Assembly: GCA_027717875.1 (NCBI GenBank)
Contig: JALLOL010000158.1
Location: 1 to 6,086, forward strand
Reading direction: 5' to 3'
Length of the DNA: 6,086 nt
DNA from: Acidobacteria bacterium AH-259-L09
GTDB lineage: Bacteria; Acidobacteriota; UBA6911; RPQK01
The notes under the pieces are model-generated. The model worked only from the letters and a program-made list of their open reading frames with translations, had not been told where the DNA came from and did not search any database. Each line of letters starts with the position of its first letter. Position 1 is the first letter of the stretch. The translations under genes were made by a program, and so were the position numbers. This document shows positions 1-6,086 of this stretch, one piece after another.

Positions 1-22
1 AGAGGGTGTCACAAAACTCCTG
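1..22 (-). other. 3' exon side of the group II intron (flanking DNA)
   Basis: These bases lie beyond the predicted 3' end of the intron, so they are the DNA into which the intron inserted. Read on the minus strand the stretch starts CAGGAGTTTTG and continues into GTGACACCC. It is too short to identify a gene. The plus-strand text GGGTGTCACAAAA looks like the terminal repeats of some insertion sequences, but one copy of this length proves nothing. Confidence 0.4.
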
Positions 23-94
23 ATAGGGGTAGGAAGGGACGGTTAATTCCCGGCCCCTCCCCCCTCCGAACCGGACATGCGGATCTCCCGCATC
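23..94 (-). ncRNA. 3' part of the intron: rest of domain V plus domain VI
   Basis: Minus-strand bases 89-68 hold the GAGA tip and the 3' strand of domain V, ending GTCCGGTTC, which pairs with GAGCCGGATGC on the far side of the RIT insertion. Bases 67-23 fold as domain VI: a G-rich strand (GGAGGGGGGAGGGGCCGG), a GAATTAA loop and a C-rich return strand ending CCTACCCCTAT. The A opposite position 30 is unpaired within this stem and lies 8th from the predicted 3' end, as expected for the lariat branch point. The intact pairing on both sides suggests that the RIT insertion is recent. Confidence 0.82.
90..94 (+). repeat. Direct repeat GCATC, left copy (partner 3530-3534)
   Basis: GCATC occurs here and at 3530-3534 in the same orientation, flanking the inserted RIT DNA. 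Keeping one copy restores domain V of the intron, so this is either a target duplication or a shared crossover core. The repeat can be read as 6 bases (CGCATC, 89-94 and 3529-3534), which leaves the exact junction ambiguous by one base. Confidence 0.65.
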
Positions 95-118
95 TTATGG
101 GGCGCGCCCCATAAGATG
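91..118. repeat. Perfect 28-base palindrome at the left RIT end
   Basis: The sequence reads identically on both strands with its centre between 104 and 105. The first arm is CATCTTATGGGGCG. Its inner 22 bases (94-115) are two abutting, inverted near-copies of the RIT end motif CTTATGTGGCG, each with T changed to G at the seventh base. The outer CATC overlaps the direct repeat of the target. No equivalent is present at the right end. It has no T-run on either side, so it does not look like a terminator. A recombinase binding or crossover site is the most likely role, by inference from the motif. Confidence 0.7.
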
Positions 119-119
119 T

Positions 120-203
120 GTTATGTGGCCTCCGCACTTACGTGGCGCTGCCTGAATATCACCTTGATAATCCCATCACCTCGATATTTTAACGCCACAT
201 AAG
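120..203 (+). repeat. Left RIT end module, 84 bases (inverted copy at 3446-3529)
   Basis: The outer 28 bases (120-147) are the exact reverse complement of 3502-3529. They contain TTATGTGGC (121-129) and CTTACGTGGCG (137-147). An inner motif CGCCACATAAG (193-203) faces the other way. With two further bases it forms a 13-base match (191-203) to the reverse complement of 3446-3458. The 45 bases between the motifs are not conserved between ends. Opposed motifs with a fixed spacing suggest binding sites for recombinase protomers. The likely promoter of the recombinase operon also lies inside this module. Confidence 0.85.
164..190 (+). promoter_or_regulatory. Possible promoter of the recombinase operon
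   Basis: TTGATA (164-169) and TATTTT (185-190) are separated by 15 bases, shorter than the usual 17, so this is a weak sigma-70-type candidate. It lies between the outer and inner recombinase motifs, so recombinase binding there could repress the operon. TAAGAT at 200-205 is another possible -10 box but has no good -35 partner. Confidence 0.3.
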
Positions 204-236
204 ATTTTATTCGATACTGGTTGGATCTCATCCAAA

Positions 237-243
237 AAGGAGG
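237..243 (+). promoter_or_regulatory. Strong ribosome binding site of the first recombinase
   Basis: AAGGAGG is followed by 9 bases and then ATG at 253. This near-perfect Shine-Dalgarno site fixes the start of the first recombinase gene. Confidence 0.85.
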
Positions 244-252
244 ATCCAAACC

Positions 253-1500
253 ATGTTCGAAAAGTTGTTTAAGTATCGCCGTGTCTTAGCTCGCCACCGT
301 GACGGTCCGTTTGCGGAAGAGCGAGGCCACTATCTTTCGCATCGTGCACAGCAGGGAGCTGCAAAGGAGACCCTGCTAAAGATGGCCCGCGAATTGCTCG
401 TGGTTTCCCGTGAAGTCAACCTGATCCCCGGCCAGAAGATTGGAGTCGTTGAGATCGAGGCGGCTGCTGGGCGTTGGGCTCGACGCCAGCAGCGACACCG
501 TCGGGCGCGTACGCAGCGATGGTCGCGAGGACTCTTCGTCCTGACGGCGACCCAATGGCTTCAGTTCCTGGGTCGTTTCAAGAAGGCCGAGGAGAAGGCA
601 GTCCCCTTTTCAGACCTGATCAATGACTTTGCCACTTACCTGTGTCACGAGCGGGGTCTGTCCGCAGTCACGATCCGCAACTACTGTTGGCATGCCGGGC
701 GCTTTCTCCGCTGGTTTGACGGACATAGCCATGCTTTCGCCGAAGTTTCCATTCCACATGTGGATGGATTCCTCGCTCTAAACGGCACCCACGGCTGGAC
801 GCGAGTGTCAGTAGCATCTTGCGCAAAGGCGTTACGAGCCTTCTTTCTGCACGCCGAGAGGCAGGGTTGGTGCGCCTCTGGGATTGCAGCCGCCATTGAG
901 AGCCCTCGTATTTTTAAACAGGAGGGACTGCCTTCTGGACCTGCATGGAAGGATGTCCAACGCCTCATTGCGAGCACAGAGACCGATCAGCCGCGCGACA
1001 TTCGCGACCGAGCCGTGTTGATGCTTTTTGCCATCTACGGGCTGCGGGGTGGGGAGGTTAGGAATCTACGTCTCGAAGACATTGACTGGGAACGGGAGGT
1101 AGTCAAGATCTCACGTGCGAAGCAGCGACGCACGCGGGAGTACCCACTCATGCGCGCAGTTGGCGAGGCAATCATCCGCTACCTCAAAGAGGTTCGACCC
1201 CGCTGTACCCGTCGTGAGGTTTTCCTTACACTGAAGGCACCCTTCCGCCCGCTCTCGCCTGGTGCTCTCTACCACATGACCGGAACTCGGTTTTCGCAGC
1301 TCGGAATCGAAGCACTCCACCGAGGACCCCATGCTCTCCGGCACGCATGTGCAACTCACCTCGTCTGCGAAGGACTCTCGCTCAAGGAGATCGGCGATCA
1401 CTTAGGACACCGCAGCAGCTTCGCCACCCGTCACTATGCCAAGGTCGATATAACCGGACTGCGTGAGGTTGCGAGCTTTGACTTGGGAGGTCTGTCATGA
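253..1500 (+). CDS. ritA: Tyrosine recombinase, first of the RIT trio (RitA)
   Basis: A 415-residue site-specific recombinase of the tyrosine (lambda integrase) family, which cuts and rejoins DNA through a covalent 3'-phosphotyrosine. The first 115 or so residues are a basic extension rich in R and Q. A core-binding SAM-like domain follows (about 118-215: FATYLCHERGLSAVTIRNY), then the catalytic domain (about 230-405). Catalytic residues visible are R265 (YGLRGGEV), K290 in the beta-hairpin (RAKQRRTREYPL), H360 and R363 (HALRH), H386 (LGHRS) and the nucleophile Y395 (TRHYAKV). The start is set by AAGGAGG nine bases upstream. The stop shares ATGA with the next start, so translation is coupled. 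It probably acts with its two neighbours on the 84-base end modules. All expected residues are present, so I see no sign of decay. The family is certain; which step this member performs is unknown. Confidence 0.93.
   Translation: MFEKLFKYRRVLARHRDGPFAEERGHYLSHRAQQGAAKETLLKMARELLVVSREVNLIPGQKIGVVEIEAAAGRWARRQQRHRRARTQRWSRGLFVLTATQWLQFLGRFKKAEEKAVPFSDLINDFATYLCHERGLSAVTIRNYCWHAGRFLRWFDGHSHAFAEVSIPHVDGFLALNGTHGWTRVSVASCAKALRAFFLHAERQGWCASGIAAAIESPRIFKQEGLPSGPAWKDVQRLIASTETDQPRDIRDRAVLMLFAIYGLRGGEVRNLRLEDIDWEREVVKISRAKQRRTREYPLMRAVGEAIIRYLKEVRPRCTRREVFLTLKAPFRPLSPGALYHMTGTRFSQLGIEALHRGPHALRHACATHLVCEGLSLKEIGDHLGHRSSFATRHYAKVDITGLREVASFDLGGLS
1485..1490 (+). promoter_or_regulatory. Internal ribosome binding site of the second recombinase
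   Basis: GGGAGG lies 6 bases before ATG at 1497 and inside the end of the upstream gene. It supports the 4-base overlap start. The same GGGAGGT block precedes the third gene. Confidence 0.75.
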
Positions 1501-2444
1501 AACTGTCCGAAGTCATTAGCGAGTACATCGCACTCAAACAGTCGATGGGAGCGCGTTTCCACGCTGAAGCTGTCATCCTGAAAGCTTTCTCTAAAGCGCT
1601 TGGGAACGTCGCCATCGCAGAGGTGGCGGTCGCTCCTGTGCATGCCTACATCTCTGGTGCTGGTCCCGTTACGCGGTTCTGGCACCGTAAGCACGAGGCG
1701 CTTCGCGGCTTCTACCGTTTTGCGATCGGGCGCGGCTATGCGGGCTGTTCACCACTACCGAAGTCCTTGCCCAAGCCTTCCAAGCCTTTTGTCCCTTACA
1801 TCTTCTCTCAGCAGGAGCTGCAGCGGCTGCTCGATGCCACTGCTGGTCAGGAGAACCCACGCAGGAAACTCCAAGCTCACACCTTACGGACTCTAATCCT
1901 TCTACTCTACGGTGCGGGGTTGCGGATCAGTGAGGCGCTTTCTCTCACTCTAGCCGATGTGGACCTGGCGAGTGGCTTGTTGACAATCCACGAAAGCAAG
2001 TTCTATAAAACACGCCTTGTACCCATCGGACCTCGCCTCACCGACGCCCTGATAACGTATGCGATCAAACGACGAAAATTAGGTCACCCCCAGAGCCCGG
2101 AGGCACCTTTCTTCGTCACGCGCGCCGGCGCAACCGTAACACGCCAAATGGCGGAAAGAGCCTTCTGTCGTTTGCGTGAGAGTGCCGGTGTCCATCGGCA
2201 TGACGGCGCACGCTATCAGCCGCGACTTCACGACCTGCGTCACGGATTCGCGGTGCACCGCCTGGTTTCATGGTATCGCCAGGGTGCGGACGTCCAGCGT
2301 CTACTACCTCAACTTGCAACCTACCTCGGGCACGTTCATGTGGCGGCTACCCAGCGCTATCTCACGATGACCCCCGAGTTGCTGCATGAAGCGAGCTTAC
2401 GCTTCGAACGCTACGCCATGGCGGGAGGTAATCATGATGAATGA
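1497..2444 (+). CDS. ritB: Tyrosine recombinase, second of the RIT trio (RitB)
   Basis: A 315-residue tyrosine recombinase and the shortest of the three. It has a compact core-binding domain (about 1-90), a linker (LPKPSKPFVPYIFSQQEL) and a catalytic domain (about 105-300). Catalytic residues are R143 (AGLRISEA), K168 or K171 (ESKFYKTRLVPIG), H245 and R248 (LHDLRHG), H279 (YLGHV) and Y288 (TQRYLTM). Between HxxRH and LGH there is a longer spacer (VSWYRQGADVQRLLPQLATY) than in its neighbours, consistent with a separate subfamily. The start ATG overlaps the previous stop (ATGA) and is preceded by GGGAGG, so expression should be coupled to the first gene. It lies in the middle of the operon and overlaps the third gene. 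The family is certain; its specific role in the trio is not known from the sequence. Confidence 0.93.
   Translation: MKLSEVISEYIALKQSMGARFHAEAVILKAFSKALGNVAIAEVAVAPVHAYISGAGPVTRFWHRKHEALRGFYRFAIGRGYAGCSPLPKSLPKPSKPFVPYIFSQQELQRLLDATAGQENPRRKLQAHTLRTLILLLYGAGLRISEALSLTLADVDLASGLLTIHESKFYKTRLVPIGPRLTDALITYAIKRRKLGHPQSPEAPFFVTRAGATVTRQMAERAFCRLRESAGVHRHDGARYQPRLHDLRHGFAVHRLVSWYRQGADVQRLLPQLATYLGHVHVAATQRYLTMTPELLHEASLRFERYAMAGGNHDE
2423..2428 (+). promoter_or_regulatory. Ribosome binding site that decides the third start
   Basis: GGGAGG lies 5 bases before ATG at 2434 and 8 bases before a second in-frame ATG at 2437. This favours a start here over the longer reading that begins at 2386, which has no comparable site. 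The GGGAGGT..TCATGA arrangement echoes the junction at 1485-1500. Confidence 0.7.
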
Positions 2445-3432
2445 AACATTGATCGGTCCGTGGATCCGGCGCTTCCTGGTTGAACACCTCGTCTGCGAGC
2501 GCAATCTAGCGCGCAATACCCAGCGTAGCTACAGGGACACGATTATGCTGCTCATGCCCTTTGTTGCTGGTAAGGTGGGAAAAACTGTAGACCGGCTCTC
2601 CATTGAGCACGTCTCAGCAGACCTCGTCCGTCTTTTCCTTCTTAACCTTGAGGAGTCCCGTGGTTGCGGGATTGCGACCCGCAACCAGAGACTCGCTGCC
2701 ATTCGCTCCCTGGCTCGCTTCGTCGGGGAAAACAGCCCTGAACACATAGCCTGGTGTGGAGGCATCCGAGCCATTCCATTCAAAAAAACCACGAAGAAGT
2801 TGATGTCCTACCTCGATAAAGCAGAGATGGATGCGCTGCTGACTTCACCGGACTGTCACACAGCCCAAGGCCGCCGAGACCATGCCCTGCTACTGTTTCT
2901 CTACAACTCGGGTGCCCGCGCCGACGAAGCGGCGCGCCTGACCATTGCTGACCTCGATCTCCTGGGTTCGGCATCTGTCAAGATCCTTGGCAAAGGCAAC
3001 AAGGAGCGCCGGTGCCCGCTGTGGCCCGCGACAGCTCGGGAGCTAGCGGCTCTAGTCGCAAATCGCGGGCCTGGAGAGCGAGTTTTCCTTAACCGCTGCG
3101 GCCAACCAATTACGCGCTTTGGCATCCACACGATGGTCGAACGCTACGCCTTCAGGGCTAGGGCTCGGATGCCATCGCTCGCAACCAAACGAGTCAGCCC
3201 GCATACGATCCGTCACGGCACTGCAATGCATCTTCTGCGGGCAGGCGTGGACATCAACACAATCCGTGCGTGGCTGGGCCACGTATCGATCGATACAACC
3301 AACGTCTACGTCGAGATCGATTTAGAAATGAAGGCCAAGGCTCTCGCCAAGTGTGAGATAGCCGACGAAAACAAACCCCGGCGACACTGGCGCGAGGATC
3401 GAAGTCTGATGAACTTCTTGCGCGGCCTGTAA
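2434..3432 (+). CDS. ritC: Tyrosine recombinase, third of the RIT trio (RitC)
   Basis: A tyrosine recombinase of 332 residues from the ATG at 2434 (331 if 2437 is used), resembling XerC/XerD-type enzymes. The N-terminal core-binding domain (about 5-100) contains LVCERNLARNTQRSYRDT. The catalytic domain follows (about 120-300). Catalytic residues are R162 (SGARADEA), K187 in the beta-hairpin (GKGNKERRCPL), H257 and R260 (HTIRHG), H283 (WLGHVS) and Y292 (TTNVYVE). A basic tail follows the nucleophile (KPRRHWREDRS). The reading frame is open back to 2386, but the ribosome binding site GGGAGG at 2423-2428 favours 2434, which overlaps the second gene by 11 bases (ATGATGAATGA). It ends about 70 bases before the right terminal repeat. 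A third full recombinase separates this element from Tn554-type transposons, whose third protein is of another type. Confidence 0.92.
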   Translation: MMNETLIGPWIRRFLVEHLVCERNLARNTQRSYRDTIMLLMPFVAGKVGKTVDRLSIEHVSADLVRLFLLNLEESRGCGIATRNQRLAAIRSLARFVGENSPEHIAWCGGIRAIPFKKTTKKLMSYLDKAEMDALLTSPDCHTAQGRRDHALLLFLYNSGARADEAARLTIADLDLLGSASVKILGKGNKERRCPLWPATARELAALVANRGPGERVFLNRCGQPITRFGIHTMVERYAFRARARMPSLATKRVSPHTIRHGTAMHLLRAGVDINTIRAWLGHVSIDTTNVYVEIDLEMKAKALAKCEIADENKPRRHWREDRSLMNFLRGL

Positions 3433-3445
3433 CCGCCTGAGTAAA

Positions 3446-3529
3446 CTTATGTGGCGTTCGGACGAGCAAATCTGCTATAGCTACTGCCGTTCCAGGCCGG
3501 ACGCCACGTAAGTGCGGAGGCCACATAAC
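3446..3529 (-). repeat. Right RIT end module, 84 bases (inverted copy of 120-203)
   Basis: Inner motif CTTATGTGGCG (3446-3456) matches the reverse complement of 193-203, and the match runs 13 bases to 3458. The outer 28 bases (3502-3529) are the exact reverse complement of 120-147 and contain CGCCACGTAAG (3502-3512) and GCCACATAA (3520-3528). The gap between the inner motif and the first outer motif is 45 bases, identical to the left end, though the gap sequence differs. Conserved spacing without conserved sequence points to a protein-DNA complex of defined geometry. Confidence 0.85.
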
Positions 3530-3534
3530 GCATC
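3530..3534 (+). repeat. Direct repeat GCATC, right copy (partner 90-94)
   Basis: This is the right-hand copy of the short direct repeat bordering the RIT insertion. It also forms part of the 5' strand of intron domain V (GGATGC on the minus strand). Confidence 0.65.
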
Positions 3535-3540
3535 CGGCTC
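3530..3540 (-). ncRNA. Intron domain V, 5' strand, severed by RIT
   Basis: Minus-strand GAGCCGGATGC contains the AGC catalytic triad of domain V. It lies 5 bases after the stop codon of the RT gene, as is common. Joined to minus-strand bases 89-68 it gives a 33-base hairpin: the GCCGG/CCGGT outer stem, bulged bases, ATGCGG/CCGCAT inner stem and a GAGA-type tip. In this window the two strands are about 3.4 kb apart. Confidence 0.85.
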
Positions 3541-3545
3541 TCCAG

Positions 3546-4928
3546 TCAGTGGGGTCCACAGCGGGACTGACAGAGGGAATCATAGGCTGCGCTTAAAGTG
3601 AACAGCCCCTGCTCCCGAAAGAATGCTATGGGCCAGCGCTGATGGTCGGCTCCTCGTCCGCGCCCCCGTCCACCTTTCCGTTTCCGGAGAATGCTGCGCA
3701 GCCGCATTCGTACCCACCCATCTATATCCCGAAAGCAGTAAGGACGGCCGTGTTTAAAGTACTCAAACCAGCCTCCAAGTATCGGGTTGAGTCGGTCGAT
3801 GGTCTGCTGCAGACTGTGTCCGTTGGTGCGCCGTGTGTGGGATCGGATCCGGAGACGCAGTTGTTGGATGCTGCGCTTACGGGGCCAGCGCTTCCCTCGT
3901 TCAAAATGATATCCGAGGAATTCGAAGCCCCCGGCTTGGCTGGCATCCACCAGTCGCGTCTTTTCCGAATGCAGCACCAGACCTCGGGCCTGGATGAGCT
4001 GGCCTAGCCGTTTCAAGGCGGCATCCGCCTCCTGACGGCTCCCACACAGCACGACGATGTCATCCGCATAACGGATGATCTGGTAGCCCTCTTGCCACAG
4101 TACTTGGTCGACCCGGTGCAGGTAGACATTCGCCATCAAGGGACTGATCACAGCCCCTTGCGGCGTTCCCTGCTCCGGTTGCCAAGTCTTCACCCCTTCC
4201 AGAACCTTTTGGTTGAGGTAGGAGTCGATGAGCTGGAGCACCGTTCCGTCAGCGATCTCCTGACTGAGTTCCTCCATGAGAGTCTTGTGGTCGATTCGAT
4301 CGAAGTAGCTGACAATATCCGCATCCACCACCCAGTGATAACCCGCTTCGAGCAGCTCCGAGACCCGTCTCAAGGCATCTTTACAGCCTCGTCCCGGGCG
4401 GAAGCCGTAGCTCTGCGCCATGAATTTGGCCTCAAAGATCGGCTCAATCACCTGGCGCAAAGCCGTTTGCACGACTCGGTCACGTACAGCGGGAATACCC
4501 AGGGGCCTTTGCTTCTTCGCGCCTGGTTTATCGATCCAGACCCGACGCACGTCCCGGGGTTGGTATTGTCCTGCCTTCAGCTGCCGGTGCAATAGTTCCA
4601 GCTCCTGCTCAACTCGTTGGGAGAACTTTCTGACGCTCTGCCGATCCACTCCGGCCACTCCACGGTTGCGTTCCACCTTCTTCCAGGCCGCTTCCAGGTT
4701 GGCCGGTGCGTAGACTTTATCCATCAGGCTAAACCATTTGCCTCCTTTCACCCCCTTTTCGAGGGCCTTCAGCATGTGTTCGGTCCACACTGTCGCTTCC
4801 ACCCACGCCCATTTGTCAGCCCGGGCTTCTCCGCCTTGTCTAGAACTCTTGCTCACTGACGACGGTTGTGACTGCTTCAGCATGACTTTACACATCCACC
4901 TTCCTGGCCTCCTTCGCTCCACGGGCAT
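3546..4928 (-). CDS. ltrA: Group II intron reverse transcriptase/maturase
   Basis: A 460-residue intron-encoded protein that binds its intron RNA, assists splicing and makes cDNA at the target. Motifs in order are: WFSLMDKVYAPANLEAAW near 65-82 and NRGVAGVDRQS near 88-98 (RT0/RT1); IPAVRDRVVQ (145-154) and QSYGFRPGRGCKDAL (RT2); DADIVSYFD with catalytic D204 (RT3); EQGTPQGAVISPLMAN (RT4); YADD at 287-290 (RT5); GGFEFLGYHF (RT7). The maturase/thumb X domain follows (LNPILGGWFEYFKHG, about 381-395). A very basic stretch (RKRKGGRGRGRG) leads to a short C-terminal segment. There is no HNH endonuclease domain. The frame is intact and the YADD site complete. The longest start (4928) has a poor ribosome site; ATG at 4895 or 4883, behind GGAAGGTGG, is a credible alternative because conserved sequence begins after residue 28 or so. 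With domain V broken it can act only in trans. Confidence 0.95.
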   Translation of the reverse strand: MPVERRRPGRWMCKVMLKQSQPSSVSKSSRQGGEARADKWAWVEATVWTEHMLKALEKGVKGGKWFSLMDKVYAPANLEAAWKKVERNRGVAGVDRQSVRKFSQRVEQELELLHRQLKAGQYQPRDVRRVWIDKPGAKKQRPLGIPAVRDRVVQTALRQVIEPIFEAKFMAQSYGFRPGRGCKDALRRVSELLEAGYHWVVDADIVSYFDRIDHKTLMEELSQEIADGTVLQLIDSYLNQKVLEGVKTWQPEQGTPQGAVISPLMANVYLHRVDQVLWQEGYQIIRYADDIVVLCGSRQEADAALKRLGQLIQARGLVLHSEKTRLVDASQAGGFEFLGYHFERGKRWPRKRSIQQLRLRIRSHTRRTNGHSLQQTIDRLNPILGGWFEYFKHGRPYCFRDIDGWVRMRLRSILRKRKGGRGRGRGADHQRWPIAFFREQGLFTLSAAYDSLCQSRCGPH

Positions 4929-5314
4929 TACCCCGCTTCATCACTACAACGAAGCCTCTGTATCCTGCCGGGCACACTCCACCCGACAGGCCTCCCTGCT
5001 TAACGCACTCAGACTTCCCACCATTCTGTCTCCAACCACCACATGAGCCCCGTGATGGCTTTCTCATGCTACCCCTCAGCCTCACGGGCGTTTCAGTTCC
5101 TTTTAACAGGAACCTCCATTCGGGCTTCACCCTTCCCTAGCAGGCTCGCCAACTTCATGCGGCCGAATCGAGTTCGTTTCCTACGGACTGGCGGTTCTCC
5201 TCCAGTTGCTTCCCACCCCGCTTTAGGCGACGCAGTTACTTTCGGATACAGACCGGAGAACATCTGTCTGAAGAGGACTTTCACCTCTCTATCTGAGTGC
5301 GCTCACAGGCGCAC
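4929..5314 (-). ncRNA. 5' non-coding part of the group II intron (domain I region)
   Basis: There is no convincing gene in this 386-base stretch. Read on the minus strand it starts GTGCG, forms a GTGCGC/GCGCAC hairpin (5314-5297) and soon reaches GGTGAAAGTCC (5287-5277), a sequence typical of the start of bacterial group II intron domain I. It continues with GC-rich, self-complementary RNA up to the RT gene. A TAGGG at 5139-5135 is a candidate EBS1 for the CCCTA that ends the upstream exon. Exact subdomains cannot be drawn without a covariance model. Confidence 0.75.
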
Positions 5315-5397
5315 TAGGGGCGAGCCGTTGGCTCGCCCGAGCTTTTCATCCTGCGGCCAAACCTCAGGTTCGGGCGGACCGCCGGCCCGCCCCTACG
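5315..5397. repeat. REPIN-like pair of inverted hairpins
   Basis: Two related units face each other. Unit A (plus strand, 5315-5342) begins TAGGGGCGAGCCG and has a perfect 9-base stem, GGGCGAGCC/GGCTCGCCC, with a GTT loop. Unit B (minus strand, 5395-5368) begins TAGGGGCGGGCCG and has a stem of six pairs, GGGCGG/CCGCCC, plus inner pairs. Aligned over 28 bases, A and B agree at 22. Outermost TAGGGGCG (5315-5322) and CGCCCCTA (5388-5395) are perfect inverted ends around a spacer of about 25 bases. This is the layout of REPINs, extragenic doublets of REP hairpins normally copied in trans by a RAYT transposase. The intron abuts the outer edge of unit A. Copy number elsewhere in the genome is unknown. 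Confidence 0.65.
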
Positions 5398-5405
5398 AGC
5401 CGAAA

Positions 5406-5457
5406 CCAAAATGAAGAGCCTTTTGCGACGCCTCTGACAGTGGCGGCTCTGTTTTGG
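5406..5457 (-). terminator. Interrupted hairpin downstream of the MocA-like gene
   Basis: CCAAAA (5406-5411) pairs with TTTTGG (5452-5457), and AGAGCC (5415-5420) pairs with GGCTCT (5445-5450), with a small bulge between them. Inner CGCC/GGCG (5429-5432, 5442-5445) is an alternative pairing. On the minus strand GGCTCT is followed by TCATTTTGG, a short T-rich tail. It lies about 45 bases after the stop codon of the nucleotidyltransferase gene. A weak or bidirectional terminator is plausible; a small degenerate repeat is the alternative. Confidence 0.4.
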
Positions 5458-5500
5458 GGTCCTTCGAACTCTTTCGGACTGAGGTGCACACACAGACACT

Positions 5501-6086
5501 TTATTGCTTTTCTCCGATGAGTTTACGATATATTTGCGGCGTGTCGATGTCCAGGAGCGGCCTTTCGCTGTCCAGAGCAACGGTCACAATTTCGCTCTGG
5601 TGATGCTTGAGAATCTGCCTTCCCCCTTCGTCTCCTGTTATGCTGGCCAGTTCTGGAAAAAGTGATCGATCAAATAGAAGCGGTGCACCCCGCCGTCCCT
5701 TGTAGGTTGGCATTACGATGGGTCCGCCGCTCCCTTCGTAAGTGCTAATCAGTTCATCCAACAGGGTCGAGCTTAGAAAGGGCTGATCAGCGGGAATAAA
5801 AAGCGCCGCGCAGGCTGAAGAATCTACCGAACGCAGGCCCAGCTTCACCGAGGAGCTCTGGCCCTTCGCATACTCCACATTATTGACGATGTTGACCTCT
5901 AGATCGGACAAGACGGGTCGAACCGAATCGGCCATGAATCCAACCACAACGATTAACTCCCGAAGACGCGATGCCAGAACATTCTTGGCCACCCTTCTAA
6001 CCAATGGTTCACCATCTATAAGAAGAAGTTGCTTGGGACGATCCTCCGTCAGGCGTTTTGACTCGCCGGCTGCCAGCAGTACTCCA
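5501..6086 (-). CDS. MocA/MobA-like nucleotidyltransferase, 5' end beyond window
   Basis: 194 residues are visible and the frame stays open to the window edge, so the true start lies outside. A TTG codon at 6004 is internal because conserved sequence precedes it. The visible start GVLLAAGESKRL...RPKQLLLIDGEPL is the nucleotide-binding signature of the MobA-like NTP transferase fold (LAAG, R11, K18). Further motifs are GQSSSVKLGL (75-84), ADQP with the metal-binding D100, GRRGAP (130-135), GDEGGRQIL (151-159) and DIDTP near the C-terminus. LAAG rather than LAGG, the DQP and the GRRGAP motif favour the MocA side: cytidylyl transfer to molybdopterin for molybdenum hydroxylases. The first residues are probably only a few short of complete, since the family is about 190-205 residues. 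The protein is cytoplasmic and has no signal peptide. A related sugar or alcohol nucleotidyltransferase cannot be excluded without neighbouring genes. Confidence 0.85.
   Translation of the reverse strand, partial: GVLLAAGESKRLTEDRPKQLLLIDGEPLVRRVAKNVLASRLRELIVVVGFMADSVRPVLSDLEVNIVNNVEYAKGQSSSVKLGLRSVDSSACAALFIPADQPFLSSTLLDELISTYEGSGGPIVMPTYKGRRGAPLLFDRSLFPELASITGDEGGRQILKHHQSEIVTVALDSERPLLDIDTPQIYRKLIGEKQ

Follow-up and report, generated by a model that had tools for sequence, protein, structure and literature searches.

RIT elements are about 3.5 kb long and comprise three tyrosine recombinase genes that overlap and share a strand, with a 28-29-bp inverted repeat and a palindrome near the ends (PMC3414803). 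Insertions have been described in a Tn6049-type transposase gene (PMC3414803) and in IS66 tnpA and radC (PMC2864759); RitA possesses two core-binding domains and RitC an additional C-terminal helix (PMC8138268). Table 1 of a further paper lists the target specificity of RIT elements as not tested, and the same source notes that circles of SE elements include 6 bp of left flank (PMC10214605). Here we describe an intact-looking RIT element (RitA/B/C) with 27-bp terminal repeats, located inside domain V (DV) of a minus-strand group II intron. It lies in a 6,086-nt stretch of DNA, hereafter the window, from Acidobacteria bacterium AH-259-L09 (GCA_027717875.1, contig JALLOL010000158.1, positions 1-6,086, forward strand).

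From comparison with related loci (designated by L numbers), the branch of RIT elements to which this one belongs appears to use the most conserved part of the intron as its landing site. We propose, with a probability of roughly 0.85, that this branch integrates site-specifically at DV positions 7-12, a 6-bp spacer, by tyrosine recombination across a 6-bp overlap and with a near-symmetric attP. The aligned loci display what the proposal draws on, namely a position that recurs, a shared anatomy, empty sites and the use of both orientations.

Domain V of the interrupted intron

Excising nucleotides 95-3534 (3,440 bp) from the window yields, on the minus strand, GAGCCG-GATGCG-GGAGATCCGCATGTCCGGTTC, a 33-nt DV with AGC at positions 2-4 in which 12 of the 12 scored DV pairs form. 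This agrees with a sequence-only reading of the window, which had predicted that removal of this interval would give a DV with AGC. The AGC, the bulge and the closing stem are present only once the flanks are rejoined, and domain VI follows. In the unjoined window the Rfam Intron_gpII match is weak (98-23 on the minus strand, 25 bits against a gathering threshold of 40, the DV 5' strand being partly unmatched), because the DV 5' part is 3.4 kb off. The direct repeat flanking the insertion is 6 bp, CGCATC, at 89-94 and 3529-3534, which corrects the 5-bp GCATC border given by that earlier reading.

Uninterrupted relatives (L112, L113, L092 and the intron in L024) align without a gap through the DV join, so the join is not due to chance. 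The intron protein of L112 is 56% identical to that of the window and that of L113 50%; L112 has GAGCCGGATGCGGGAGATCCGCCAGTCCGGTTC at DV. L024 is itself a RIT locus of the non-DV type, the element lying within about 1 kb of the intact intron, which encodes a protein 51% identical to that of the window.

Recurrence of the insertion

An alignment of 32 RitB homologues was used to fetch loci: 80 from genome contigs (the best 80 of 168 relatives), one viral, eight from plasmids (picked among 60 listed of 1,015 matching records) and the window, giving 90. In 48 of these the repeat pair could be placed together with a palindrome of at least 6/10 pairs, and 44 were scored after short flanks had removed L026, L058, L073 and L077; in the other 42 the repeat pair was unplaced, the palindrome weak or the contig at its end. 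End mapping misplaced L003 and L016, whose flanks were taken from direct reading of the ends, and the ends of L013, L048 and L121 rest on weak repeat matches (21-22/30). L006, L010, L011, L014, L030 and L045 could be assigned to neither DV nor non-DV.

Eight of the 44 scored loci (window, L005, L007, L008, L015, L017, L018 and L115) rejoin to a DV; the other 36 do not. The fixed-register DV score was 13-15 in the former and 3-10 in the latter, and is descriptive only, the DV cases having first been spotted by eye and free registers reaching up to 14. L145, found after scoring and outside the 44, is a ninth case, and in all nine both flanks are available and DV is split at one position. Six partial cases, also outside the 44, possess DV halves: the 3' half in L001, L002 and L004 (adjoining masked bases in L004), the 5' half in L003 (altered to GCGCCG, the opposite flank being unrelated) and L016 (whose second flank is lost to the contig end), and the 5' half at both ends of L009. 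The total, window included, is 15 DV insertions. Other RITs thus do lie in DV when their flanks are joined and compared with it, as had been suggested. DV cases make up 13 of the 19 loci L001-L018 and L115. The remaining six, L006 and L010-L014, are either unassigned or reach a contig end, L012 and L013 being non-DV by site score. Viral contigs gave one relative, L081, at a site that is not DV.

According to record titles, the both-flank cases beside the window come from alpha-, beta- and deltaproteobacteria, and the partial cases also from Terriglobia, Pirellulaceae and gammaproteobacterial metagenome-assembled genomes. A junction pattern with 2 mismatches allowed matched 14 of 398 genomes of the phylum of L007, its own genome among them; the reversed control matched 1 genome. 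In tblastn searches the window intron protein matched beside DV loci L007, L015, L016, L017 and L018, weakly at L009, and also at L024; in L115 ltrA is annotated next to the element.

The eight scored DVs (L145 was left out of this set) also covary. In the rejoined sequences 92.7% of 96 cells are paired, with double changes at 8 of 12 pairs; none of 500 shuffles was as high on any of five measures, and versions in which the partner was slid paired at 20-52%. The seven unpaired cells fall at pair 3 (three, from L005, L007 and L018), pair 7 (two) and pair 8 (two), and the intact introns L111 and L091 have the same ending as L007 and L018. The outer 5' and 3' halves of the same locus form 45 of 48 pairs, whereas swapped halves average 37.3, and 24 of 40,320 permutations were as good. 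Positions A2, G3, C4 and C11 are invariant across the eight targets. Together with the uninterrupted relatives, this covariation upholds the original proposal of a RIT inside a group II intron DV; at the level of sequence, both the insertion event and its recurrence are established.

These data bear on the idea that RIT insertion is low in specificity, landing in DV by chance or ascertainment. RITs at large occupy many different genes, and the loci were selected by likeness to a DV-inserted element, which would favor it. Against it stand nine insertions at the same position, in DVs of varied sequence, with varied spacers, in both orientations and in several proteobacterial classes, as well as the recurring target types of other branches (see below). 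We regard it as highly improbable.

Empty sites and intact introns

Plasmid CP050294 of Mesorhizobium loti 582 (L128) and plasmid CP050298 of M. huakuii 583 (L115) are 100% identical over 2,915 nt to one side of the insertion and 94.4% identical over 665 nt to the other. Nucleotides 2594-6015 of L115 (3,422 bp) fall outside both matches, and the DV of L128 is complete. Four bases of L128 belong to both matches, which brings the net insertion to 3,426 bp, the combined length of the core, the inner spacer, the palindrome and one 6-bp spacer. L130 gives the same breakpoints as L128, with flank identities of 97.5% and 89.9%. In the Cupriavidus genome of L015 another intron copy (L125) possesses an intact DV and flanks 96% and 93% identical. 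L085, from the same genome as L008, aligns through the join at 75% over 207 nt with a gapless DV, and L111, from a different genome, aligns with the L007 join at 80% over 142 nt, the one gap within DV lying away from the join.

DV-like halves adjoin the spacers at all DV loci, a pattern also expected if the flanks were RIT attachment-site sequence that mimics DV, with no broken intron. We give this practically no credence: intron-protein homology lies beside six of the loci (weakly at L009) and ltrA beside L115, RIT-free intact intron copies match both flanks, and RITs of the same anatomy exist without DV. Such a mimic is refuted by the empty sites.

The insertion could alternatively act as a DNA-level switch, excision restoring splicing and the intron-RIT pairing being under selection. 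Rejoining does yield an intact DV, and the recombinases and intron protein look intact; on the other side, there is no sign of conserved intron-RIT pairing, and most introns in RIT-bearing genomes need no RIT. Intron_gpII, for which 150 candidates were scored in most of 14 such genomes, matched at E 0.001 or better in at least 13 and above the cut-off in at least 10. A switch therefore seems very unlikely. Because the insertion splits the ribozyme core, an intron copy carrying the RIT would be expected no longer to splice or retrohome, even with its protein frame open.

Anatomy and orientation

RITs with placeable ends are arranged as N6, repeat, ritABC, repeat, N6, 20-bp palindrome, N6. The features of the window are collected in Table 1. 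Its repeat-to-repeat core spans 121-3528 on the plus strand. The three rit genes lie on one strand, ritA and ritB overlapping by 4 bp (1497-1500) and ritB and ritC at 2434-2444; the ritC start was set at 2434 in an open frame that starts at 2386. A motif scan found the catalytic R, HxxR and Y motifs of tyrosine recombinases, as well as LGH, in RitA, RitB and RitC alike.

Table 1. Features of the window; positions are counted from its first nucleotide
Feature	Position	Strand	Evidence
Host group II intron, RIT-interrupted	23..5314	-	Rfam match, intron protein, end motifs, uninterrupted relatives
DV 3' part GGAGATCCGCATGTCCGGTTC, then domain VI	68..88	-	Rfam match, join, relatives
Outer spacer, DV 3' side: GATGCG, same as 3529-3534	89..94	-	Flank reading
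Perfect 20-bp palindrome TTATGGGGCGCGCCCCATAA, DV 3' side	95..114	.	End mapping
Inner spacer GATGTG, 1 base different from outer spacer	115..120	+	End mapping
Left terminal inverted repeat, 27 identical bases, two TTAYGTGG motifs	121..147	+	End mapping
ritA, 415 aa, tyrosine recombinase	253..1500	+	PF00589 1.7e-29; R, HxxR, LGH, Y motifs
ritB, 315 aa, tyrosine recombinase	1497..2444	+	PF00589 1.2e-22; motifs
ritC, 332 aa, tyrosine recombinase	2434..3432	+	PF00589 1.5e-27; motifs
Right terminal inverted repeat	3502..3528	-	End mapping
Outer spacer, DV 5' side: GATGCG on minus, CGCATC on plus	3529..3534	-	Flank reading
DV 5' part GAGCCG, outside spacer	3535..3540	-	Flank reading
Intron-encoded protein, 460-aa open frame, reverse transcriptase (YADD) and maturase domain	3546..4928	-	TIGR04416, PF00078, PF08388

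In all 12 DV loci where it can be placed (the nine plus L001, L002 and L016, the last counted although the contig end truncates it), the palindrome is on the 3' side of DV, irrespective of the direction of ritABC. Relative to the DV strand, ritABC has the same orientation in three of the nine cases and the opposite in six. The RITs of L115 and L145 are the same (99%) and split DV at one position, with opposite orientations; the outer intron flanks of the two loci differ. A split DV would not be expected to retrohome, which makes two separate insertions likely, though inversion or rearrangement could also explain the pair. In L145/L129 a further RIT is found in ritB of the DV-inserted RIT, at the HDLRH stretch, giving a RIT in a RIT in an intron. 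Outer and inner spacers are similar and often unequal, which would fit an overlap carried over from the last target; the inner spacer of the window (115-120) would then be the overlap brought by the element. L010 and L012 possess palindromes at or near both element ends and L013 an extra repeat end past the palindrome, structures that may record tandem or successive insertions.

The ends of the host intron were set at 5314 (5', GTGCG) and 23 (3'), the 3' motif being common to relatives, and in a profile search its protein scored 387 bits against TIGR04416 (cut-off 300). Immediately ahead of the 5' end, at 5317-5338, is a GC-rich hairpin, GGGCGAGCC-AAC-GGCTCGCCC. Class C group II introns insert after terminator-like hairpins, and on this ground the intron may be of class C. 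It adjoins the 3' part of a MobA-like NTP transferase gene at 5501-6085 on the minus strand (PF12804; TIGR03310 under its cut-off).

Targets of other RITs

Translations across the rejoined site were made for 34 non-DV loci, and in 14 of these the frame stays open through all 297 residues examined. Pfam scans covered 20 of the 34 loci, with 14 left unscanned; the longest-frame rule gave implausible frames at some loci (e.g. L042, L067, L081), which were excluded from the scan. Eighteen of the 20 sites lie within transposase or recombinase genes: 11 with rve or Mu-type C-terminal domains, some only under the curated cut-off (L020, L037, L046, L071, L056, L049, L076, L118, L059, L079, L025), four with DDE_Tnp_IS66 (L060, L072, L119, L117), and one each with Transposase_mut (L116), Phage_integrase (L023) and Resolvase (L074). 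The two elsewhere are in an AAA domain (L053; 27.1 against a listed cut-off of 27, at or just below it given rounding) and an HU-like DNA-binding domain (L122). The preference for DV is thus confined to the RIT branch around the window and other branches use other targets, so that the earlier suggestion of DV as a recurrent RIT landing site holds for this branch with its 15 insertions and fails for RITs at large, which among those scanned mostly occupy transposase genes.

Other branches likewise show recurring target types. In L039, L046, L055, L063 and L079 the RIT sits at a matching GNEKGRVERA-like place in transposase genes (in L063 by DNA flanks) that are presumably of the IS21 type; those of L046 and L079 contain the Mu-type C-terminal domain. 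Several non-DV junctions adjoin residues that we take to be catalytic. On this basis there is perhaps an even chance that RITs as a class are specialized parasites of mobile elements, each branch recognizing a brief conserved segment within or close to the active-site region of some widespread gene of mobile elements. With the same evenly balanced confidence, the genes concerned would be DDE transposases, tyrosine recombinases including other RITs, and the group II intron ribozyme core. If true, each branch would carry its own landing site, one available almost everywhere and expendable for the host cell.

A quick RitB tree of 90 rows was labelled at 51, 14 of them DV (L145 left out; L001-L004, L009 and L016 labelled DV on partial flanks). 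Five changes account for the DV label; shuffled labels took 12.3 on average, and no shuffle out of 500 did with as few. The well supported branches by themselves force only one DV change. Because the majority of DV loci make up a grade surrounding the branches of IS21 and rve (L004 is placed elsewhere), DV may be an older target in this part of the tree, where supports are low.

Proposed route of integration

We envisage that the tyrosine recombinases RitA, RitB and RitC circularize the element, and that the attP of the circle would consist of repeat, N6, 20-bp palindrome, N6 and repeat, each N6 lying between inverted arms (in the window, CCMCATAA-N6-TTATGKGG). Strand exchange with DV over the 6-bp overlap would leave one spacer copy on either outer flank, with the inner spacer as the third, and would put the palindrome on the DV 3' side. 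Since attP is near symmetric, ritABC could enter in either orientation. The DV target is present in introns of varied lineages and hosts.

Several observations weigh against this proposal. Spacer copies of a single insertion often differ by 1-3 bases, so that either strict overlap identity would not be required or the copies have drifted, and the 3' spacer copy of L017, GTCGCG, is unlike both its 5' and inner copies. L003 and L009 are without palindrome, and L009 has two DV 5' halves, perhaps through recombination between two insertions or misassembly. For L017 and L018 no uninterrupted intron was found in their own genomes, the sole match each being the locus itself, and the window intron protein gave no tblastn match (1e-3; some contigs short) at L001-L005 and L008. 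The DV cases are not one supported clade on the RitB tree, and the loci were selected for their resemblance to an element inserted in DV.

The target may also be read in another form. Integron integrases recognize folded attC, and the DV branch could similarly read a folded DV hairpin, in extruded or single-stranded DNA, in place of double-stranded sequence. Target sequences vary with stems kept through paired changes, and folding was better than in shuffles at seven of the eight rejoined DV sites (z -1.8 to -4.7; L017, -0.1). DV, however, folds for its own reasons, so that this evidence is not independent, and the constant A2, G3, C4 and C11 could serve a site read as sequence. We consider hairpin reading by this branch possible though rather unlikely. 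Of the 36 rejoined sites outside DV, just five reach a folding z of -1.2 or below; as a general reason for RIT targeting, which the sequence-only reading had proposed, hairpin recognition is therefore unsupported and was set aside.

DV positions 7-12 are a candidate attB, a candidate attP is likewise defined, and the Mesorhizobium plasmids and the Cupriavidus genome offer natural filled and empty pairs. The insertions also show DNA elements targeting a ribozyme at its catalytic core. Insertion into DV should disable retroelement copies and may restrain the spread of the intron.

Comparison with known systems

The window element resembles known RIT elements in its rit trio, the gene overlaps, the single strand, the terminal inverted repeats and the palindrome. 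It differs in that the DV target, the triplet of 6-bp spacers and the rule on the palindrome side are absent from the RIT descriptions in the excerpts of PMC3414803, PMC2864759 and PMC10214605. In the literature searched we found no report of a group II intron containing a RIT; the main survey of RITs, Ricker et al. 2013, or else Nielsen et al. 2017 may contain related observations. GInt/SE and Tn554-related elements likewise have several tyrosine recombinases per element, but their gene sets differ, and the repeat-spacer-palindrome layout is absent from their descriptions in the excerpts of PMC10214605.

The host conforms to other group II introns in its DV, ordinary after rejoining, its domain VI and its reverse transcriptase/maturase, and departs from them in a DV cut by 3.4 kb. 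Tn916-type coupling sequences and dif/Xer sites feature a 6-bp overlap, non-identical spacers and inverted arms around the overlap. The window RIT is set apart from these systems by its three recombinases, the extra palindrome and the recurrent DV target.

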